Origin: a bacterium
GTDB lineage: Bacteria > Sysuimicrobiota > Sysuimicrobiia > Sysuimicrobiales > Segetimicrobiaceae
Reading direction: 5' to 3'
Length of the DNA stretch: 64,000 nt
NCBI GenBank assembly: GCA_035307765.1
Contig: DATGHU010000044.1
Location: forward strand, 62,001-126,000
Position 1 is the stretch's first letter, and every line of letters begins with the position of its first letter. A model generated the notes under the pieces. That model was not told the origin of the DNA, made no database searches, and saw nothing but the letters and a program-made list of their open reading frames with translations. A program made the translations under genes and the position numbers. Positions 1,022 through 28,049 of this stretch are shown piece after piece.

Positions 1022-1888
1022 CTATCCTCTCTCCGGGTCCCCGGCGCTTCCCCCCAACCTGAGCCGCGTCTCCCGGGCGGCCTCGAGGAGGGTGTCCAGG
1101 CGGCGTTCGTCGGCGAGCGCGGCCTCCAGGCGGTCGAGCTCCTGCCGAAAAACGCGCAGCGCTTCCTGGATCGGCGCACGGTTCAGCCGGCAGATCTGGG
1201 CCCACATCGCGACCGGACTCGCCGCCACCCGCGTGGCCCCCCGCAGCGAGGGGCCCGCGGCGGGACCGGCCCCGCCCACGGCGCCCATCAGGGCGGCGGC
1301 AACTAGATAAGGAAGGTGGCTCACCCGCGCCACGGTCCGGTCGTGCTCCTCCGGGCTCATCTCCATCGGGACCGCACCCAGCGCCCTGGCCAACTGAGCC
1401 AAGCGCTCCACGCCCGCGCGCGGCGTCCGCGATGTGGGTGTCAGGAGATAGGCGGTGCCGGCGAACAGCCCGGGCTCCGCCGCGTCGACCCCCCGCCCCT
1501 CGTTGCCGGCCATCGGATGGCCGCCGACAAACGCCACCTCGCCGCGGGTTCCGACGCCCGCCTCGATCCCGGAGACGATCGCCGCCTTGACGCTCGCCAC
1601 GTCAGTGAGCAGAGCGCCCGCCGGGAGGTGCGGCGCCACCCGCCGCGCCATCGGGACGATCTGGTCAGGCGGAACGGCCAGGACGACCAGATCGGCGCCG
1701 TCCACCCCTTCCGCCGGATCGATCGTGCCCCGATCGATCGCCCCGCGCCGGCACGCCTGGCCGATCGTCGCCAGCGACCGGGGCACCCCCACGACCTCGC
1801 GGGCCAGCCCGCGGGCCCGCAGCGCCATCCCGAGCGACCCCCCGATCAGGCCAACCCCGACGATCGCGACCCGGCGGAACGTCTCCAT
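1022..1888 (-). CDS. tyrA: prephenate dehydrogenase
   Basis: Oxidatively decarboxylates prephenate to 4-hydroxyphenylpyruvate with NAD(P)+, the committed step to tyrosine. The protein has 288 residues. The Rossmann motif GVGLIGGS is at residues 11-18, and the family motif GGHPMAGNEG follows mid-protein, then the alpha-helical prephenate-binding domain. No C-terminal ACT domain is visible, so feedback control may sit elsewhere, for example in AroF. The gene starts 7 nt after the aroF stop and ends 3 nt before trpE. Its product also feeds CofH, encoded close by, which uses tyrosine. Confidence 0.93.
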   Translation of the reverse strand: METFRRVAIVGVGLIGGSLGMALRARGLAREVVGVPRSLATIGQACRRGAIDRGTIDPAEGVDGADLVVLAVPPDQIVPMARRVAPHLPAGALLTDVASVKAAIVSGIEAGVGTRGEVAFVGGHPMAGNEGRGVDAAEPGLFAGTAYLLTPTSRTPRAGVERLAQLARALGAVPMEMSPEEHDRTVARVSHLPYLVAAALMGAVGGAGPAAGPSLRGATRVAASPVAMWAQICRLNRAPIQEALRVFRQELDRLEAALADERRLDTLLEAARETRLRLGGSAGDPERG

Positions 1889-1895
1889 CCGGCGC

Positions 1896-2918
1896 TCACA
1901 CGCGGCGTCCCACGGCGAGGGCGACCGCGTCCAGCTCCTGCATCATCAGGGCGAAGTTCACGGGGGTCAGCTGCTGCGGCCCGTCGCTGAGCGCCCGGCC
2001 TGGATCGGGATGGACCTCTACCAGAAGCCCGTCGGCGCCGGCGGCCACCGACGCCCGCGCCATCGGGGTGACGAGCTCCCACTTCCCCGTCCCGTGGCAG
2101 GGATCGACGATCACGGGAAGATGCGTGAGGTGCTTGAGGACCGGGACCGCGTTGAGGTCGAGCGTGAACCGCGTGTAGTTCTCGAACGTGCGGATGCCGC
2201 GTTCGCACAGAACCACGTTGACGTTCCCCTCGGCCATGATGTACTCGGCGGCGAGCAACAGCTCCTCAATCGTCGCGCTGGGCCCGCGTTTGAGCATCAC
2301 GGGATGGCTCACCCGTCCGACCTCCCGCAGCAGCGGGTAGTTCTGCATGTTCCGCGCGCCGATCTGAATCATGTCCGCGTACCGCATGACCATCTCGAGC
2401 TGTCGGGGGTCCATCGCCTCCGTCACCACCGGCAGCCCGGTGATCTCGCGGGCCTCCGCCAGAATCTTGAGCGCCTCCTCCTCGAGGCCCTGGAACGAGT
2501 AGGGGGAGGTCCGCGGCTTGAAGGCTCCGCCGCGAAGCAGTTGGGCGCCGGCCTCCTTCACCGCATGGGCGGTCTCGAGCGCCTGCTCCCTCGTCTCCAC
2601 CGAGCAGGGGCCGGCGATGACGATCACCCGGCCGCCCCCGATGGCCACATCCTTCACCCACACCGTCGTGTCGCGGCCGCCGTGAAACTCGCGGCTGACG
2701 AGTTTGTACGGCTGGAGGATGCGGACGACGTTCTCGACGCCGGCCATGGCCCCAATGTTCTCGCGCAGGAGCTCCTTTGTGTGGCTGTCGCCCACCACGC
2801 CGATCACGATTCGCTCCACCCCTTCGTTGATCTGCACGCGCAGACCGGCCTCCTCGATCTTCTGGATGACCGCGTCCATCTGCGGGCGGGTGTGACCGGG
2901 ACCCATCACGACGATCAT
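1896..2918 (-). CDS. aroF: 3-deoxy-7-phosphoheptulonate (DAHP) synthase, type I beta with regulatory N-domain
   Basis: Condenses phosphoenolpyruvate and erythrose 4-phosphate to DAHP, the entry step of the shikimate pathway. The protein has 340 residues. Residues 1-70 look like the ferredoxin-like regulatory domain of Thermotoga-type enzymes ([18 protein letters not shown]). The TIM barrel follows, with [40 protein letters not shown] and DPCHGTGKW. The last of these carries metal and substrate ligands in the family. The start is supported by GAGGAGG 8 nt upstream. It is the first gene after a T-box leader with terminator, so transcription should respond to a tRNA charging level. In this family the N-domain gives allosteric inhibition by tyrosine or phenylalanine. 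Confidence 0.95.
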
Positions 2919-2939
2919 TCCGCTGTCCTCCTCACCCCT

Positions 2940-3240
2940 GCAAAAACATAAGAGCCCCCCGTCCGCTCGGGACGGGAGGCTTGATGCGCCACCCGCGGTA
3001 CCACCCCATTTTCCCGGCCGTACGGCCGGGACGCTCGCCAGGGAACGAAGCCGTTGCTCTGCTCCGTCCCACCTCCGCCCACGGTGGAGGAACCCGGCGG
3101 GGACTACTCAGCGCACGTGCGCCGTTCGTCCCGCCCCTCGCGGGTCCATTCCGCCCCGGCGGCCTCCCGTGCTCGCACCCTGCGCACGGGTCGCTCTGTA
3201 GATCCGCCGGAGGTACTCGTCCCGGTCATCGGGTTTGGTA
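2940..3240 (-). promoter_or_regulatory. T-box riboswitch leader of aroF-tyrA-trpE
   Basis: Read on the minus strand, this leader carries the T-box core GGGGTGGTACCGCG (2994-3007), which pairs with the acceptor end of an uncharged tRNA. A terminator hairpin with a T-rich tail follows (2951-2981, tail to 2942). Upstream is a long GC-rich stem I. It has GATGA...AGTA elements, as in the usual S-turn/K-turn side, and a distal segment AGAGCGACCC...GGTGCGAGCACGGG resembling the AG-bulge and terminal loop. On the 3' side of stem I the best specifier candidate is TGG (3146-3148) in the context GGAATGGACC, followed by A as usual. That would read tRNA-Trp. The T-box and terminator are directly visible; the specifier is an inference. 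Confidence 0.9.
2951..2981 (-). terminator. T-box intrinsic terminator
   Basis: A 12-bp stem (AGCCTCCCGTCC against GGACGGGGGGCT, one G-U pair) has a short CGAGC-type loop and is followed by TTATGTTTTT. It lies between the T-box core and the aroF ribosome site and would be the default structure when the tRNA is charged. Confidence 0.9.
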
Positions 3241-3246
3241 CCCTCC

Positions 3247-3255
3247 ACTATAGCA
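3247..3255 (-). promoter_or_regulatory. extended -10 promoter of the T-box operon
   Basis: TGC-TATAGT on the minus strand, placing the start of transcription near 3240, just before stem I. No good -35 is visible at 17 bp. The same 14-mer GTGTGCTATAGTGG recurs exactly at the rpmH promoter (27838-27843 is its -10), which supports it as a promoter type of this genome. Confidence 0.6.
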
Positions 3256-3345
3256 CACTCCGTCAAGACGCTAGGCACGAAGGGCCTTTTCGGCCACACG
3301 GCGGATAGTGAAGACACGTCGCGCGTCCCACCGAGGAGCATCCTC

Positions 3346-4062
3346 ATGTTCACGAAATCCGTCGAATTCTACGACGCGATCTACGAGTGGAAGGATTACC
3401 GCGCGGAGGCGGAGCGGCTGCGCACCGTGATCCAGACCCACGCCCGGCGGCCCGTCGAGACCCTGCTCGACGTCGCCTGCGGAACCGGCCAGCATCTCGT
3501 CCACCTCAAGCCGCACTTCGCGGTGGAGGGGCTCGACCTCAACCCGGAGATCCTGGCCACCGCTCGCCGGCGACACCCGGATGTCGTATTTCATCACGCG
3601 GACATGGTGCGGTTCGACCTCCCCCGCCGGTTCGATGTCGTGACCTGCCTGTTTGCCTCGATCGCGTACGCCGGGACGGTTGCGAAGCTTCACGAAGCCG
3701 TGGGCAGCATGCGCCGGCACGTCCGCGCGGGGGGGCTGGTCATCGTCGAGCCGTTCGTCCGCCCGGAGGACTTCCAGCCCGGCCGGCTGGGCGCGATCTT
3801 CGTCGACCGGCCCGACCTGAAGATCGCCCGGCTGCACATCAGCGCGGCCGATCGAGGCCTCGCGGTCCTGCCGTTCCACTATCTCGTCGCGACGCCGAGC
3901 GGGGTGGAGCACTTCGTGGAGCGCCACGAACTCGCCCTGTTCTCCCACGACGAATATCTGGCGGCGTTCCGTGCGGCCGATCTGACGGTCCGCTACGAGC
4001 ACGACGGGCTGATGGGCCGGGGCCTCTACATCGGCCTGCGGGGGAACGAGCCGGCAGGGTGA
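3346..4062 (+). CDS. class I SAM-dependent methyltransferase
   Basis: A 238-residue methyltransferase, probably for a small molecule. Motif I (LLDVACGTG) is at residues 40-48, followed by VEGLDLNPEIL (acidic motif II), FHHADMVRFDL and FDVVTCLFASIAYA. The overall sequence resembles the amino-sugar N,N-dimethyltransferase group (DesVI/TylM1-like), but the substrate cannot be deduced. The start at ATG 3346 is chosen because GAGGAG lies 7 nt upstream; the open frame reaches back to 3235 into the divergent T-box promoter. It ends 6 nt before cofG and may be cotranscribed with cofGH. Confidence 0.8.
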   Translation: MFTKSVEFYDAIYEWKDYRAEAERLRTVIQTHARRPVETLLDVACGTGQHLVHLKPHFAVEGLDLNPEILATARRRHPDVVFHHADMVRFDLPRRFDVVTCLFASIAYAGTVAKLHEAVGSMRRHVRAGGLVIVEPFVRPEDFQPGRLGAIFVDRPDLKIARLHISAADRGLAVLPFHYLVATPSGVEHFVERHELALFSHDEYLAAFRAADLTVRYEHDGLMGRGLYIGLRGNEPAG

Positions 4063-4068
4063 TGGGCG

Positions 4069-5358
4069 ATGGGATCGCGAAGCTCTAGAGCGATGATCTC
4101 CCCCGCGAAGCGCCTTTTTCTCCGAGGGTCCGATGGTACCGCCTCCGACCCTCTCCGTCTGGCCCGGACGCCGGCCGTCGCGGCCGCGCTCGATCGCGCC
4201 CTGGGCCGCGGCGCGGCGGGGGGCGAGGACGCCGCGCTCCTGATGGCGTGCCCGGAGGCGGACCTCCCGGCCGTCTGCGCCGCCGCGCGCGCGCTGCGCA
4301 CCCTGGGCAAGGGGCGGACGGTCAGCTTTTCGCCCAAGGTGTTCATCCCCCTGACGCGGCTGTGCCGCGACACGTGTGGATACTGCACCTTCCGCACCGA
4401 CCCCGAGAACGATCCCGGGCTCTACATGACCCCCGAGGACGTCCTGGCGGTAGCCCGCGGGGGAGAGCGGCTGGGGTGCACCGAGGCGCTGTTCACCCTG
4501 GGCGAGCGACCCGAGCAGCGTTTTCCGGAGGCGCGGCGGTGGCTCGCCCACCGCGGCCACCGCAGCACGCTCTCCTACCTTGGCGAAGTGGCCGCGCTCG
4601 TGCTGCGCGAGACCGGGCTGGGGCCCCACCTCAATCCCGGCACGATGACCCGCACGGAGATGGCCGGGCTGCGGGAGGTCAGCGCCTCCATGGGGCTGAT
4701 GCTGGAGAGCGTGAGCGAGCGCCTGTGCCGGCCCGGAGGCCCGCACGCGAACGCACCCAGCAAGCGCCCGCGGGCGCGCCTGGCCACGCTGGAGGCGGCC
4801 GGAGCGCTCCGTGTGCCGTTTACGACCGGGATCTTGATCGGGATTGGGGAGACTCCCCAGGAGCGCGTGGACGCCCTCCTGGCCATCCGCGAGTCGCATG
4901 CCCGGTGGGGGCACGTCCAGGAAGTGATCGTGCAAAACTTCCGCGCCAAACCGCACACGGCCATGGCGGGCGCGGCGGAACCGGGGATCCTGGACGTCGT
5001 CCGCACGGCCGCGGTGGCGCGGCTCGTGCTCGGGCCCGAGGCAAACATCCAAGTCCCCCCCAACCTCAGCGCGGTCGACTTCCCCATCTACCTCGAGGCG
5101 GGCATCAACGACTGGGGGGGGATCTCGCCCCTCACGATCGACTACGTCAACCCCGAGGCGCCGTGGCCGCAGATCGACGCCTTGGCTGCGGCCACGACGG
5201 CGGCGGGACTGGACCTCAGGCCCCGGCTCCCCGCCTACCCCGAATATCTGCTCCACCACCAGGAGTTCTTCGCCCCGGCCCCGCGGGACCGGCTGTTCGC
5301 CGCCGCGGATGCCGAAGGGTACGCCAAAGGAGGTCTGGCTCGCCATGGAGGCACATGA
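4069..5358 (+). CDS. cofG: FO synthase subunit 1, radical SAM enzyme CofG
   Basis: Second of the two radical-SAM half reactions that build 7,8-didemethyl-8-hydroxy-5-deazariboflavin (FO), the chromophore of coenzyme F420. The protein has 429 residues. The [4Fe-4S] motif CRDTCGYC (C99, C103, C106) follows SFSPKVFIPLTRL. Other CofG-type segments are LTLGERPEQRFPEARRWL (near), HLNPGTM, LMLESVSERL, FTTGILIGIGET and QEVIVQNFRAKPHTAM. The N-terminal 85 residues form a helical extension before the barrel. It overlaps cofH by 14 nt, so the two halves are translationally linked rather than fused as in actinobacterial FbiC. Confidence 0.93.
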   Translation: MGSRSSRAMISPAKRLFLRGSDGTASDPLRLARTPAVAAALDRALGRGAAGGEDAALLMACPEADLPAVCAAARALRTLGKGRTVSFSPKVFIPLTRLCRDTCGYCTFRTDPENDPGLYMTPEDVLAVARGGERLGCTEALFTLGERPEQRFPEARRWLAHRGHRSTLSYLGEVAALVLRETGLGPHLNPGTMTRTEMAGLREVSASMGLMLESVSERLCRPGGPHANAPSKRPRARLATLEAAGALRVPFTTGILIGIGETPQERVDALLAIRESHARWGHVQEVIVQNFRAKPHTAMAGAAEPGILDVVRTAAVARLVLGPEANIQVPPNLSAVDFPIYLEAGINDWGGISPLTIDYVNPEAPWPQIDALAAATTAAGLDLRPRLPAYPEYLLHHQEFFAPAPRDRLFAAADAEGYAKGGLARHGGT

Positions 5359-23761: not shown

Positions 23762-24871
23762 CTATCCGTAAACCCTCACCGGAGCCAACACGTAGACGTA
23801 CTCCGCATGATCGACGGGCCGCAACACCCCAGGGCTCAGTGATCCCGTCAGTTCGAACATCACTTCAGGAACGTCCATATTGATCAAAGCATCGAGGAGA
23901 AACTTGGCGTTAAACGCCACCTGCATCGTCTCTCCCTCCGCTTGCACATCAATTTCTTCTTGTGCTTTCCCAACCTCCGGAGTGTTGGAACTGACGGTCA
24001 ATGTGCGCTCCGCAGCGCTCAACCGAACGACGTTGGCGGAATCGCGAGCCGTAATGCTCGCGCGGCGCACCGCACGCAACAATCGCTCGGTCCCCACCTT
24101 AATCCGCTGCTTAAACTCGGACGGAATCACCTTCTCGTAGGGCGGAAACTGCCCGGCGATCAACCGAGAGATAAACCGCATTCCCCCCACTGTAAACAAC
24201 AACTGGTTTTCGTGCGACGCGATGGTAACTTGATCCTCGGCGCCCCCCAAAACGCGCACGAGCTCCGCCATGGTTTTGCTGGGGACGATCGCCGAGATCT
24301 TGCCTTTGACCTTTCCCGGAAGTTTCATTTTCCTCAACGCCAACCGTCCTCCGTCCGTTGCCACCAACCGGCCATCGCCGTCCTCCAACACCAAGTACAC
24401 CCCGGTGAGAAACGGCCGGGTCTCGTCGGTCGATACAGCAAAACTCGTCTGCCGAATCATCGTCCGCATCAACCCGGCATCAATTTGCGCGATAATTTCT
24501 CCCCCATCTTGGGGCATCACCGGGAAGTCAGCAGCGGGAAGTCCCAAAATCTCAAATTTGATATTCTCGCAGCTGATACGGGCCCGTGTGTCCCCCTCAC
24601 CCACATCGATGTTCACCGAAGCCACGGGAAGGTTGGAAACTATATCCCCAAAGATCCTTGCCGGAAGCGTAATACTCCCGTTCTCTGTAACATCAGCACT
24701 GATTTGTGACTCGATCCCCAATTCCAAATCAGTGGCGCTGACCTTTAATTTTCCCCCGCCCGCATCTAGTAGGATATTACTAAGTATAGGCATACTAGCT
24801 CGATTAGATATTGCTCTACTCACCACTTGGACTTCTCTGAGGAGGTGATCCTGAAGACACTGGACCCGCAT
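23762..24871 (-). CDS. dnaN: DNA polymerase III sliding clamp (beta)
   Basis: A 369-residue beta clamp. It starts MRVQCLQDHLLREVQVVSRAI, has the three-fold repeated clamp domains, and ends with PEVMFELTGSLSPGVLRPVD and YVLAPVRVYG, the conserved tail near the partner-binding pocket. AGGAG lies 8 nt before ATG. It is separated from dnaA by about 200 bp, as in many Gram-positive origins. Confidence 0.96.
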   Translation of the reverse strand: MRVQCLQDHLLREVQVVSRAISNRASMPILSNILLDAGGGKLKVSATDLELGIESQISADVTENGSITLPARIFGDIVSNLPVASVNIDVGEGDTRARISCENIKFEILGLPAADFPVMPQDGGEIIAQIDAGLMRTMIRQTSFAVSTDETRPFLTGVYLVLEDGDGRLVATDGGRLALRKMKLPGKVKGKISAIVPSKTMAELVRVLGGAEDQVTIASHENQLLFTVGGMRFISRLIAGQFPPYEKVIPSEFKQRIKVGTERLLRAVRRASITARDSANVVRLSAAERTLTVSSNTPEVGKAQEEIDVQAEGETMQVAFNAKFLLDALINMDVPEVMFELTGSLSPGVLRPVDHAEYVYVLAPVRVYG

Positions 24872-25069: not shown

Positions 25070-26446
25070 TCATTTGTCCACGGGGTTTTGACGCTCAAGG
25101 CGGAAGTTATCAACAAGACCCTTGATGCCAGCCGCGAGGTGCGTATCCTGGAGGATCGCGCTCTTGACCCGGTCACAGGCGTGCATCACGGTGGTGTGAT
25201 CTCGACCGCCGAACTCTTCGCCAATTCGTGGAAGGGAGGCGTCGGTGAGCTCGCGCGACAGGTACATGGCGACCTGTCTTGGAAACGCGATCCCTTTCGT
25301 GCGCCGCTTGGCTTTCATTTCTTCAACCCGCATGCCAAAGAACTCGGCCACGGCCCGCTGGATCGCGGGGATGGTCACCGGCCGGATTCGTGCCTGTGGG
25401 AGGAGGTCGCGCAGGACTTCGGTGGCGAGTTCGATGGACAATGAAGTTCCCGTCATTTGTGCGTGCGCGCGAAGGCGGCTCAGCGCTCCTTCGAGCTCGC
25501 GGATGTTCGAGGAGATGCGCTGGGCAATGAACTGGGCGACTTCATCCGGGAGGGTAATGGCGTCCAGATCGGCTTTTTTCCTGAGGATCGCGATCCGCGT
25601 TTCGTAGTCCGGTGGGTGGATATCGGCGATCAGCCCCCATTCGAACCTTGAGCGCAGGCGATCTTCGAGCGTCGGGATCTCCCGTGGCGGCCGGTCGCTG
25701 CTGATGATGAGCTGCCGGCTGGATTCGTGGAGGGCGTTGAAGGTGTGGAAGAACTCTTCTTGTGTCCGTTCTTTCCCCGCCAGGAATTGAATGTCGTCGA
25801 TAAGCAGCACGTCGGCGGTGCGGTACTTGTTGCGGAACTGGACTGTTTTGTCGTCTCTGATGGAATTGATGAGGTCGTTGGTAAATTTTTCGGACGACAC
25901 GTACATGACCTTCGCTAATTGCTTGTGGGTGAGGACATAGTTGCCGATCGCTTGGAGGAGATGGGTTTTTCCCAGTCCGACTCCTCCGTAGATGAACAAG
26001 GGGTTGTAAGCTTTGGCGGGGGCTTCGGCAACCGCGAGCGCGGCAGCGTGCGCGAAGCGGTTGCCGCTGCCGATAACGAATGTATCGAACGTATATTTGG
26101 GGTTAATGGCTAGGGCGTCTACGGGAGTCGACCGGGTCGAAACCGGAGGTGGGGTCGGGACAAGCGGAGGGGAAGCTTGTGCGTCGGCCTCGGCGATGAT
26201 AAATTGCACATCCACGCCGTGCCTGAGTACTTCCTGGAGGGTGTCCGAGATCAGCCGCCGGTATCGGCCCTCCACCCATTCCTTCGCGAACAAGCTCGGG
26301 ACCGAGAAAACGAAGACGCCCTGGTCCAGCATCATGGGCTGCATAGCCTTTAGGAACGCTTCGAAGCTCGGTCTGTTGAGCTGTCGTTCGATTCTTGGCA
26401 GTGCTTGCTGCCAGACTTGACTGGCAGCGAGGTTCTGGGATTCCAT
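25070..26446 (-). CDS. dnaA: chromosomal replication initiator DnaA
   Basis: Binds DnaA boxes and opens oriC. The protein has 458 residues: domain I (1-85), a Pro/Ser/Thr-rich linker (86-112), the AAA+ domain with Walker A GGVGLGKT (154-161), Walker B VLLIDDIQFL and arginine-finger region, then domain IV with the DnaA signature GGRDHTTVMHACDRV. The gene lies 41 nt downstream of the GHKL-winged-helix gene, so the two form one transcript reading away from oriC. Confidence 0.97.
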   Translation of the reverse strand: MESQNLAASQVWQQALPRIERQLNRPSFEAFLKAMQPMMLDQGVFVFSVPSLFAKEWVEGRYRRLISDTLQEVLRHGVDVQFIIAEADAQASPPLVPTPPPVSTRSTPVDALAINPKYTFDTFVIGSGNRFAHAAALAVAEAPAKAYNPLFIYGGVGLGKTHLLQAIGNYVLTHKQLAKVMYVSSEKFTNDLINSIRDDKTVQFRNKYRTADVLLIDDIQFLAGKERTQEEFFHTFNALHESSRQLIISSDRPPREIPTLEDRLRSRFEWGLIADIHPPDYETRIAILRKKADLDAITLPDEVAQFIAQRISSNIRELEGALSRLRAHAQMTGTSLSIELATEVLRDLLPQARIRPVTIPAIQRAVAEFFGMRVEEMKAKRRTKGIAFPRQVAMYLSRELTDASLPRIGEEFGGRDHTTVMHACDRVKSAILQDTHLAAGIKGLVDNFRLERQNPVDK

Positions 26447-26487: not shown

Positions 26488-27279
26488 TTATGGCTTGAAC
26501 ACGTTATCCAAGTACGCGATGCCTTGTTCGGTAAGGGTGCGTTTCCCGAGACCGCGCATCGCCACCAATTGGAGCGTTTGGAGAGCGTCGAGTTCGCGGT
26601 AGGCGGTGCTGGCACTAATGCCCAATTCCTTGGCGATGGTTGAGGGGCCGGCCGACCCCAGTTCGTTGATCAGGAGGAGTACTTTACGTTGGCGGTCGCT
26701 GGTTCTGGGCGGGATCGGGTCGGGCTTGGTCGCGGGGCGCGAAGGTTCGGTCTGGGCGGCGGCCTGTGGGGGTCCGACGTGAAGGGTGACCACGGTGCCC
26801 TGTTCGAGATTATCCTCGATCGAGATGGCGCCGCCGAGAAACGCGAGTTGTTCACGCGCCACAGGAAATCCGGATCCTACACCCTTGATGAACTGCCGCA
26901 TCTCCCTGGTCGCGGTGGTGAACCCCGGTAAGAGTGCGCGTTCCTTTTCTTTGATGCCTGGGCCGTGATCGGAGATGCGGATCGTGTTGCCGTTGTCCAT
27001 CACGGTGACGACGGCATCCTCGAAGAAAGCATGGATCAGGTTTTCCATAATCTCTCTGATGACGACAAACGGGATCCGCCCCCCGCGTTCGCGGGCGAAG
27101 TTATAGGTCCGTGCTGCAAGCTCTCCCACAAGCTCGTTGAAATCCTCCGCGGAGAGAGAGATGATCTGGGGCGGCGAGAGCAGCGTGTCGTAAACCGCCA
27201 GGCGCACCTCTGGCGCTTGGCTTATATCCTCCGGCGTCCCCTTGTGCTTCGCAATGAGCCGCAGGAAGAAATCCTGCAT
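26488..27279 (-). CDS. GHKL ATPase with C-terminal winged-helix domain, first gene of the dnaA operon
   Basis: A 263-residue protein starting at ATG 27279 (GGAG 8 nt upstream). Residues 40-168 are a GHKL (HATPase_c) ATP-binding domain: N-box REIMENLIHA (E76, N80), G1 box DHGPGI (104-109), G2 box GVGSG (133-137), and a closing GTVVTLHVG strand. It resembles anti-sigma kinases such as SpoIIAB/RsbW more than histidine kinases, and no phospho-acceptor His domain precedes it. Residues 170-195 are a Pro-rich linker. Residues 196-263 form a winged helix (ELGSAGPSTIAKELGISAST...GLGKRTLTEQGIAYLD). This suggests an ATP- or phosphorylation-sensing DNA-binding regulator of replication genes; the function is not known to me. 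Confidence 0.8.
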   Translation of the reverse strand: MQDFFLRLIAKHKGTPEDISQAPEVRLAVYDTLLSPPQIISLSAEDFNELVGELAARTYNFARERGGRIPFVVIREIMENLIHAFFEDAVVTVMDNGNTIRISDHGPGIKEKERALLPGFTTATREMRQFIKGVGSGFPVAREQLAFLGGAISIEDNLEQGTVVTLHVGPPQAAAQTEPSRPATKPDPIPPRTSDRQRKVLLLINELGSAGPSTIAKELGISASTAYRELDALQTLQLVAMRGLGKRTLTEQGIAYLDNVFKP

Positions 27280-27489
27280 GGAGTATCTCCGAATGTGTAG
27301 CGTGAGTATTGGCGGTGAGGGAGTGGCCTCCTCCCCGCGCAATTGCAGGTGTAGAGTTTTCCTATCTGCCGCTGACGTATCGGTGGTCGGTCATCTTTGT
27401 GGAGAGAAGCCCGGCATCCTCCTCCGATTTCGGAGGCATCTGTCCCCATCTCGACGATGGTCATTCATCCGAAAAGTAGCAGAATACAT

Positions 27490-27670
27490 GCCCCGGCCGC
27501 ATTATCCACAGGTGTGGAAAAGATTGTGGATATCTGGAGAAATCTCCTTCAGTTGGATTACGATTTTATTACAATCGCGAAGTTCGGCGGAATCCCAGTT
27601 TTCTGGATTTGTGGGGGTCGGAAAAATCTGGATAACCCCTGGAGTTACCACCAGGTTATCCACAAAACAT
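27490..27670. other. chromosomal replication origin oriC
   Basis: The gene-free stretch 27343-27911 lies between divergent dnaA-side and rpmH-side transcripts. Perfect DnaA boxes TTATCCACA occur at 27502-27510 and 27656-27664. Near-boxes are TTTTCCACA (minus, 27513-27521), ATATCCACA (minus, 27525-27533) and TTATCCAGA (minus, 27627-27635). Between the box groups is an AT-rich stretch (about 27552-27580, GATTACGATTTTATTACAAT) suited to unwinding. Box clustering, AT content and the switch of gene direction together identify the origin. Confidence 0.92.
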
Positions 27671-27813
27671 GCCATAATAACAGCCCCGCCAGAACAACTT
27701 CTTAAGTGGGCGGTCAACCGCTCGGTGCAACCCTGGTTAACCTCGCAGGGCGATGAGGGGCGGCACTGCCGCGGGGCTTTTCTGCGGGTCGACCGCTAGG
27801 GCCATGCCTCGCG

Positions 27814-27843
27814 TTGAATGGGTTGTCGCGCGTGTGCTATAGT
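27814..27843 (+). promoter_or_regulatory. rpmH operon promoter
   Basis: TTGAAT (27814-27819), 18 bp, TATAGT (27838-27843) preceded by TGC (extended -10). It shares GTGTGCTATAGTGG with the T-box promoter. It reads toward rpmH-rnpA-yidD-yidC-jag-rsmG. Confidence 0.7.
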
Positions 27844-27911
27844 GGGAAAAGGTGTCGGTCCGCCCCATGGGTAGGGGTGTACGGGCAGGTTTGGGATAGG
27901 GGGGCGGCCAG

Positions 27912-28049
27912 GTGAAGCGGACATTTCAGCCGAATAGACGTCATCGGAGTAAAACGCATGGGTTTCGGGCCAGGATGCGCACCCCGGGCGGGAGAAACGT
28001 ACTCCGGCGCCGTCGAGCGAAGGGGCGGCATCGGTTGGCGCCGTCGTAG
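27912..28049 (+). CDS. rpmH: 50S ribosomal protein L34
   Basis: A 45-residue basic protein found by direct translation from GTG 27912 ([20 protein letters not shown]...). The family signature [11 protein letters not shown]...HGFRARM is unmistakable. TAG stop at 28047-28049. It has the standard position beside rnpA at the origin. Confidence 0.97.

Follow-up and report, generated by a model that had tools for sequence, protein, structure and literature searches.

How the initiation of chromosome replication is coupled to physiology is, to our knowledge, largely unknown outside of the usual model bacteria. Among the regulators described for DnaA or the origin, which include SirA, YabA, Soj, SeqA and Hda, we know of none that contains a GHKL domain and of none that is encoded as an obligatory gene ahead of dnaA. 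An N box of the form E-x3-N characterizes GHKL enzymes whose chemistry involves activation of water or of a hydroxyl, such as SpoIIAB, GyrB, MutL and Hsp90. Winged helices can bind protein as well as DNA. A protein that carries both types of domain is DIP2311 of Corynebacterium diphtheriae (PDB 3lmm), which we take to be a COG2865-type protein with the order AlbA_2, HATPase_c_4 and winged helix, and for which we know of no linkage to dnaA.

Here we analyze a gene encoding a GHKL domain joined to a winged helix (GHKL-wH) that is located next to dnaA in a 64,000-nucleotide stretch of DNA from a member of the Sysuimicrobiota, hereafter called the window. An original prediction made from the letters of the window described this gene as coding for a nucleotide-sensing, DNA-binding regulator of dnaA or oriC. 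We utilize a combination of profile searches, structure prediction and a comparison of homologous loci to establish how far this reading holds, and we compare the GHKL-wH protein with the systems that resemble it most.

The GHKL-wH gene opens the dnaA operon beside oriC

The gene occupies positions 26488..27279, as originally predicted, and lies on the minus strand, which the prediction did not give. Its frame of 263 codons opens with an ATG at 27279, closes with a stop codon ending at 26488 and encodes 263 amino acids. A TTG at 27342 was rejected as the start since the ATG at 27279 is kept in near relatives, and a chance open reading frame is ruled out by 55-83% identity among the homologues of Sysuimicrobiota and by about 50 residues that are invariant across three phyla. 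The gene is the first of the dnaA operon, with dnaA (25070..26446, minus strand, 458 amino acids) following 41 nt downstream of its stop codon, exactly the gap that had been noted, and with dnaN (23762..24871, minus strand) next in the conserved gene order. Upstream, a 632-bp intergenic region (27280..27911) extends to the divergent rpmH gene (27912..28049, plus strand, GTG start, 45 amino acids) at its opposite side. This region is oriC, as it holds the only three DnaA boxes of the window and coincides with the change in sign of the GC skew, which switches at about 26 kb. A search of the window with TTWTCCACA returned matches at 27502, 27513 and 27656 against 0.26 expected, all of them between the GHKL-wH gene and rpmH, so the predicted position beside the DnaA boxes is borne out. 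The first two are facing boxes (27502..27521) that consist of TTATCCACA, a 2-nt spacer and TGTGGAAAA, and the third is a copy of TTATCCACA on the plus strand (27656..27664).

In most relatives within Sysuimicrobiota the facing pair of boxes is found at about -242/-231 from the start of the gene. Facing DnaA boxes that form a near-perfect palindrome with a 2-3 nt spacer also recur in the oriC of all three groups that we compared, where they are present in 17/37, 15/63 and 23/33 loci, counted in gene-bearing genomes only. Analysis of k-mer enrichment in the oriC regions indicated that DnaA boxes and their variants are the only sequences common to all three phyla, and it revealed no shared palindrome other than DnaA-box-like sequence.

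Additional candidate elements were noted in individual lineages. Alignment of upstream regions disclosed an AGGA-N16-CCAA element on the minus strand (27309..27332), 53 to 30 nt ahead of the GHKL-wH start codon, that could be the promoter of the operon or an operator bound by the winged helix. The more general form AGGA-N16-19-C[CTA]AA was found in 28 of 37 upstream regions from Sysuimicrobiota, where 0.7 would be expected; most copies lie between 57 and 47 nt ahead of the start codon. Among 96 upstream regions from outside of this phylum it has no match. In Thermoleophilia (locus L067, 5700-5790, and locus L066, 2780-2810) an extended -10-like sequence, TGTTATACT, occurs about 10 nt ahead of the ATG, and this spacing suggests a near-leaderless mRNA that begins with the GHKL-wH gene.

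Domain structure of the GHKL-wH protein

The original prediction had described the boxes of a GHKL ATPase, a Pro-rich linker and a winged helix with no histidine kinase dimer domain, and each of these features was recovered with Pfam and AlphaFold2. The GHKL domain comprises residues 22-172 (26764..27216, minus strand) as judged from Pfam HATPase_c, the domain model and conservation in 214 proteins, and it is built of an N-terminal strand pair, an N box (E76-N80-H83), a G1 box (D104-G108), the ATP lid, a G2 box (G133-G137) and a G3 box (G161-T162). Pfam HATPase_c is matched at residues 73-168 with 46 bits against a cut-off of 26.4 (E 8e-12) and in 25 of 25 members of a cross-phylum alignment. 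The fold together with the four boxes (N, G1, G2 and G3) places the protein in the GHKL ATPase superfamily. A Pro/Ala-rich linker of low model confidence (residues 173-192; 26704..26763, minus strand) leads to the winged-helix domain (residues 193-263; 26491..26703, minus strand), which was delimited by Pfam models, AlphaFold2 and conserved arginines. Several winged-helix and helix-turn-helix models of Pfam match residues ~194-259 of the window protein, all under their own cut-offs, including HVO_A0261_N (1.6e-5), HTH_IclR (2.8e-4), MarR and TrmB; across the 25 aligned members HVO_A0261_N is matched in 24 and HTH_IclR in 23.

Structure prediction, which had been proposed as a check, gives both folds with a floppy linker. 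In the full AlphaFold2 model (mean pLDDT 80.9) the GHKL and winged-helix folds are confident, residues 1-70 are modelled as a strand pair plus a helix, and residues 173-186 of the linker are disordered, with the relative placement of the two domains uncertain (pTM 0.55). The isolated GHKL domain, modelled from 84 relatives, reached a pLDDT of 86.8 and a pTM of 0.83.

Most of the sequence and fold matches of the GHKL domain are to CA domains of histidine kinases (KinB-type 3d36, HK853), and HATPase_c is likewise its best Pfam family. However, GHKL-wH proteins differ from histidine kinases in that they carry no HisKA/DHp domain, no sensor domain and no adjacent response regulator, and have a C-terminal winged helix instead. 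A HisKA-type dimerization or phospho-acceptor domain was found neither with Pfam nor in the curated-family search nor in the 25-member alignment, and the absence of the phospho-acceptor domain rules out a two-component histidine kinase.

Conserved residues of the ATP site and of the winged helix

The ATP site of the family is intact. Asn80, His83, Asp104, Gly106 and Gly108 are present in 212/212 proteins that include these positions, all of 213 proteins have Gly133 and Gly137, and Glu76, which precedes the N-box Asn80 by four residues (E-x3-N), is kept in 210/212. The winged helix has a basic recognition helix and a basic wing, with Arg228 of the former conserved in 197/211 proteins and Arg247 of the latter in 203/211. 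Two homologues from Bacillota (L108 and L109) have Ala in place of Glu76 and constitute natural variants that lack the putative catalytic base. The linker is Pro- and Ala-rich throughout and ranges from 13 to 242 residues among relatives; linkers of >100 residues with both domains intact are found in part of the Actinomycetota (the Coriobacteriia-type class) and in one class of Bacillota (loci L152, L154-L157, L172, L173 and L178).

Because the N box is of the E-x3-N type, activity as an ATPase or as a kinase is to be expected rather more than passive sensing. This raises the question of whether the protein could be a kinase in the style of SpoIIAB or RsbW that acts on DnaA, on a component of the replisome or on a sigma factor by phosphorylation or sequestration, with the winged helix serving as a tether to DNA or to the partner. 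The GHKL-wH protein does share with SpoIIAB and RsbW a small GHKL domain that has no histidine dimer domain as well as the spacing of the N box, with Glu76 located where anti-sigma factor F kinases have their base, and the domain profile matches the SpoIIAB structures 1th8, 1til and 1l0o (E about 2e-5, domain residues 49-146). It differs from them in carrying a winged helix, and the anti-sigma F model TIGR01925 is matched with an E value of 2.2e-4 but with only 21.2 of the 135 bits needed, while HATPase_c_2 gives a weak match in just 3/25 members. In addition, the glutamate equivalent to Glu76 serves hydrolysis in GyrB, MutL and Hsp90, and the neighbors at the examined GHKL-wH loci are dnaA and dnaN, where genes for sigma factors or anti-anti-sigma factors are absent. 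Membership in the anti-sigma factors is thus ruled out by the cut-offs of TIGR01925 and HATPase_c_2 together with the neighbors, and we regard a protein kinase of this style as unlikely.

Distribution of the family across phyla

The GHKL-wH gene was found in 39 of 43 genomes of Sysuimicrobiota, including all 28 good ones. Its relatives in the same genus are the 'ANGP1' genomes (Candidatus Segetimicrobium, Candidatus Sysuimicrobiota at NCBI), and a CSP1-3 genome is more distant within the phylum. A scan of a genome collection additionally uncovered relatives at 41-51% identity in Actinomycetota (Thermoleophilia and Coriobacteriia) and in Bacillota; the family is thereby far wider than the phylum of the window, and an orphan of one phylum is ruled out. 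For wider counts a profile built from all three phyla was run on sampled genomes. It was positive in 96 of 246 genomes of Actinomycetota, in 124/149 of the class of the Coriobacteriia seed, in 60/149 of the class of the Thermoleophilia seed and in 39 of 398 genomes of Bacillota, with 11/12 in one class of the latter; class names follow the NCBI labels of the seed loci. The search covered those phyla that had provided such a locus, and the true range may be wider than three phyla. Viral contigs queried with DnaA gave no match.

There is one dnaA-linked copy per genome. Where a genome contributed two rows to the results, these represent a single gene with a long linker, split in two, and inside Sysuimicrobiota there are rare weak extra matches (E about 1e-6).

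Linkage of the GHKL-wH gene to dnaA

We collected 258 loci, with some genomes represented twice, that encode 214 distinct proteins. The original prediction posed the question of whether the fusion is always found next to dnaA, and homologues scattered with no link to this gene would have spoken against it. In fact all testable homologues from Sysuimicrobiota, Actinomycetota and Bacillota are located immediately upstream of dnaA. A DnaA frame follows directly on the same strand in 236 of the 258 loci, and in 12 others a dnaA frame merely opens within the GHKL-wH gene, with dnaA itself again downstream. The remaining 10 loci run into a contig edge, five of which reflect a chromosome that was cut at dnaA such that its first bases encode dnaA. 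Among the 214 distinct proteins we observed no exception to this position in testable contexts. The median gap to dnaA is about 35 nt, several loci have 4-nt overlaps, and the operon order is GHKL-wH, dnaA and then dnaN where the locus extends that far.

Co-inheritance of the GHKL-wH gene with dnaA is shown by a comparison of protein distances in 165 genomes, which gave a Mantel r of 0.42 when the best of 500 permutations gave 0.15, and a correlation inside Sysuimicrobiota of 0.75. Sysuimicrobiota also form one clade with 0.99 support in both the GHKL-wH and DnaA trees, and the GHKL-wH protein has evolved 1.4- to 1.9-fold faster than DnaA.

Such linkage could in principle be passive, with an ancestral gene retained next to dnaA, in the absence of any functional tie, as the rpmH-dnaA-dnaN region rearranges slowly. 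Few gene orders in bacteria are as stable as this one, and in 185 of 200 testable loci a divergent rpmH is retained upstream. However, a Thermoleophilia locus (L067) has no rpmH within 6 kb and nevertheless keeps GHKL-wH, dnaA and dnaN together, and neither a translocated nor a second, dnaA-unlinked copy occurs in the 214 distinct proteins. We therefore consider passive adjacency to be very improbable. As locus L067 has lost rpmH and kept the link to dnaA, the gene is linked primarily to dnaA and the origin and to a lesser degree to the ancestral rpmH-dnaA block. In the same locus the usual rpmH-rnpA-yidC side is replaced (1100-5200) by genes that, named by inspection, look like those for a sortase, MoeA, a thiamine pyrophosphokinase and a thiamine transporter.

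Proposed role in the control of replication initiation

The fact that every checkable relative in three phyla directly precedes dnaA makes control of dnaA or of the origin probable, although position in an operon is by itself no proof that dnaA or oriC is the target. The reading that we favor is a regulator that binds DNA under the control of nucleotide and targets the dnaA operon and/or oriC, and we give it an even chance of being correct. Since the protein combines a predicted DNA-binding domain with an intact ATP site and would be produced alongside DnaA from a gene at the origin, the simplest place for it to act is the origin region itself. In such a mechanism the regulator would come from the first gene of the dnaA operon and would act on the adjoining operon promoter and/or oriC, with its winged helix contacting the DNA. 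The GHKL domain would constitute the switch, in which bound ATP would shut the lid and alter the geometry of the dimer or of the linker, and hydrolysis of ATP with Glu76 as the base would reset it. The outcome would be an adjustment of DnaA supply and/or of the access of DnaA to the origin. We infer from sequence that the protein binds DNA at its own locus, that nucleotide affects this binding, that ATP is hydrolyzed and that the result is either repression or activation.

A regulator of this type may alternatively respond to nucleotide in order to control distant genes, with its place in the dnaA operon providing dosage or a coupling to initiation and with no control over dnaA or oriC. One-component regulators do often reside in operons that are not solely their target, and the high variability of the linker leaves just the domains and the position as fixed features of the family. 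A strict location ahead of dnaA in three phyla, which persists when rpmH departs, nonetheless exceeds what dosage needs since many origin-proximal sites would serve equally, and control of distant genes alone seems to us improbable.

The original prediction is partly supported: the adjacency to dnaA holds in all testable contexts and the ATP-binding residues are invariant, a sensing of energy state is conceivable, and the two-domain order is not unique, as is discussed below. With its invariant ATP site, its DNA-binding domain and its place ahead of dnaA in the majority of genomes in entire classes, the protein is a strong candidate for a lineage-wide regulator of initiation. The family could conceivably represent an undescribed, ancient form of initiation control in which a GHKL switch, encoded at the head of the dnaA operon and tethered to oriC or the dnaA promoter by its own winged helix, couples the state of the nucleotide to the supply of DnaA or to the firing of the origin in Sysuimicrobiota, Coriobacteriia, Thermoleophilia and part of the Bacillota; this broader proposal we put forward tentatively and at somewhat less than an even chance. 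Homologues may perhaps be annotated only as ATP-binding protein or histidine kinase. As the gene is also present in Coriobacteriia, a class that has cultivable members, the question is approachable outside of uncultured phyla.

Comparison with known systems

Our searches of Pfam, curated families and the open-access literature revealed no characterized family with another role, the discovery of which would have told against the original prediction. No curated family covers the whole GHKL-wH protein, and we found no description of a dnaA-linked GHKL-wH family in the open-access literature.

The assumption that a GHKL-winged helix fusion has no precedent must nevertheless be dropped, as DIP2311 (3lmm) matches both domains. 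Foldseek ranks it first against the full model (E 2.4e-8, 278 columns), in a match that covers the GHKL domain and then the winged helix, both in the same order. Against the GHKL domain alone DIP2311 has the top TM-score among the best 50 matches (TM 0.76, rmsd 3.3), with kinases among these 50 reaching TM 0.46-0.57. The two proteins differ in that the 3lmm chains have about 555 residues versus 263 here, and they share 16-18% identity. Furthermore, neither AlbA_2 nor HATPase_c_4 is matched in any of the 25 aligned members, and consequently we describe the GHKL-wH protein as having a COG2865-like build and not as a member of that group. In its proposed function the closest parallels are the known regulators of DnaA and oriC, which have the role that we propose, and Soj/ParA and others among these also share a location near oriC.
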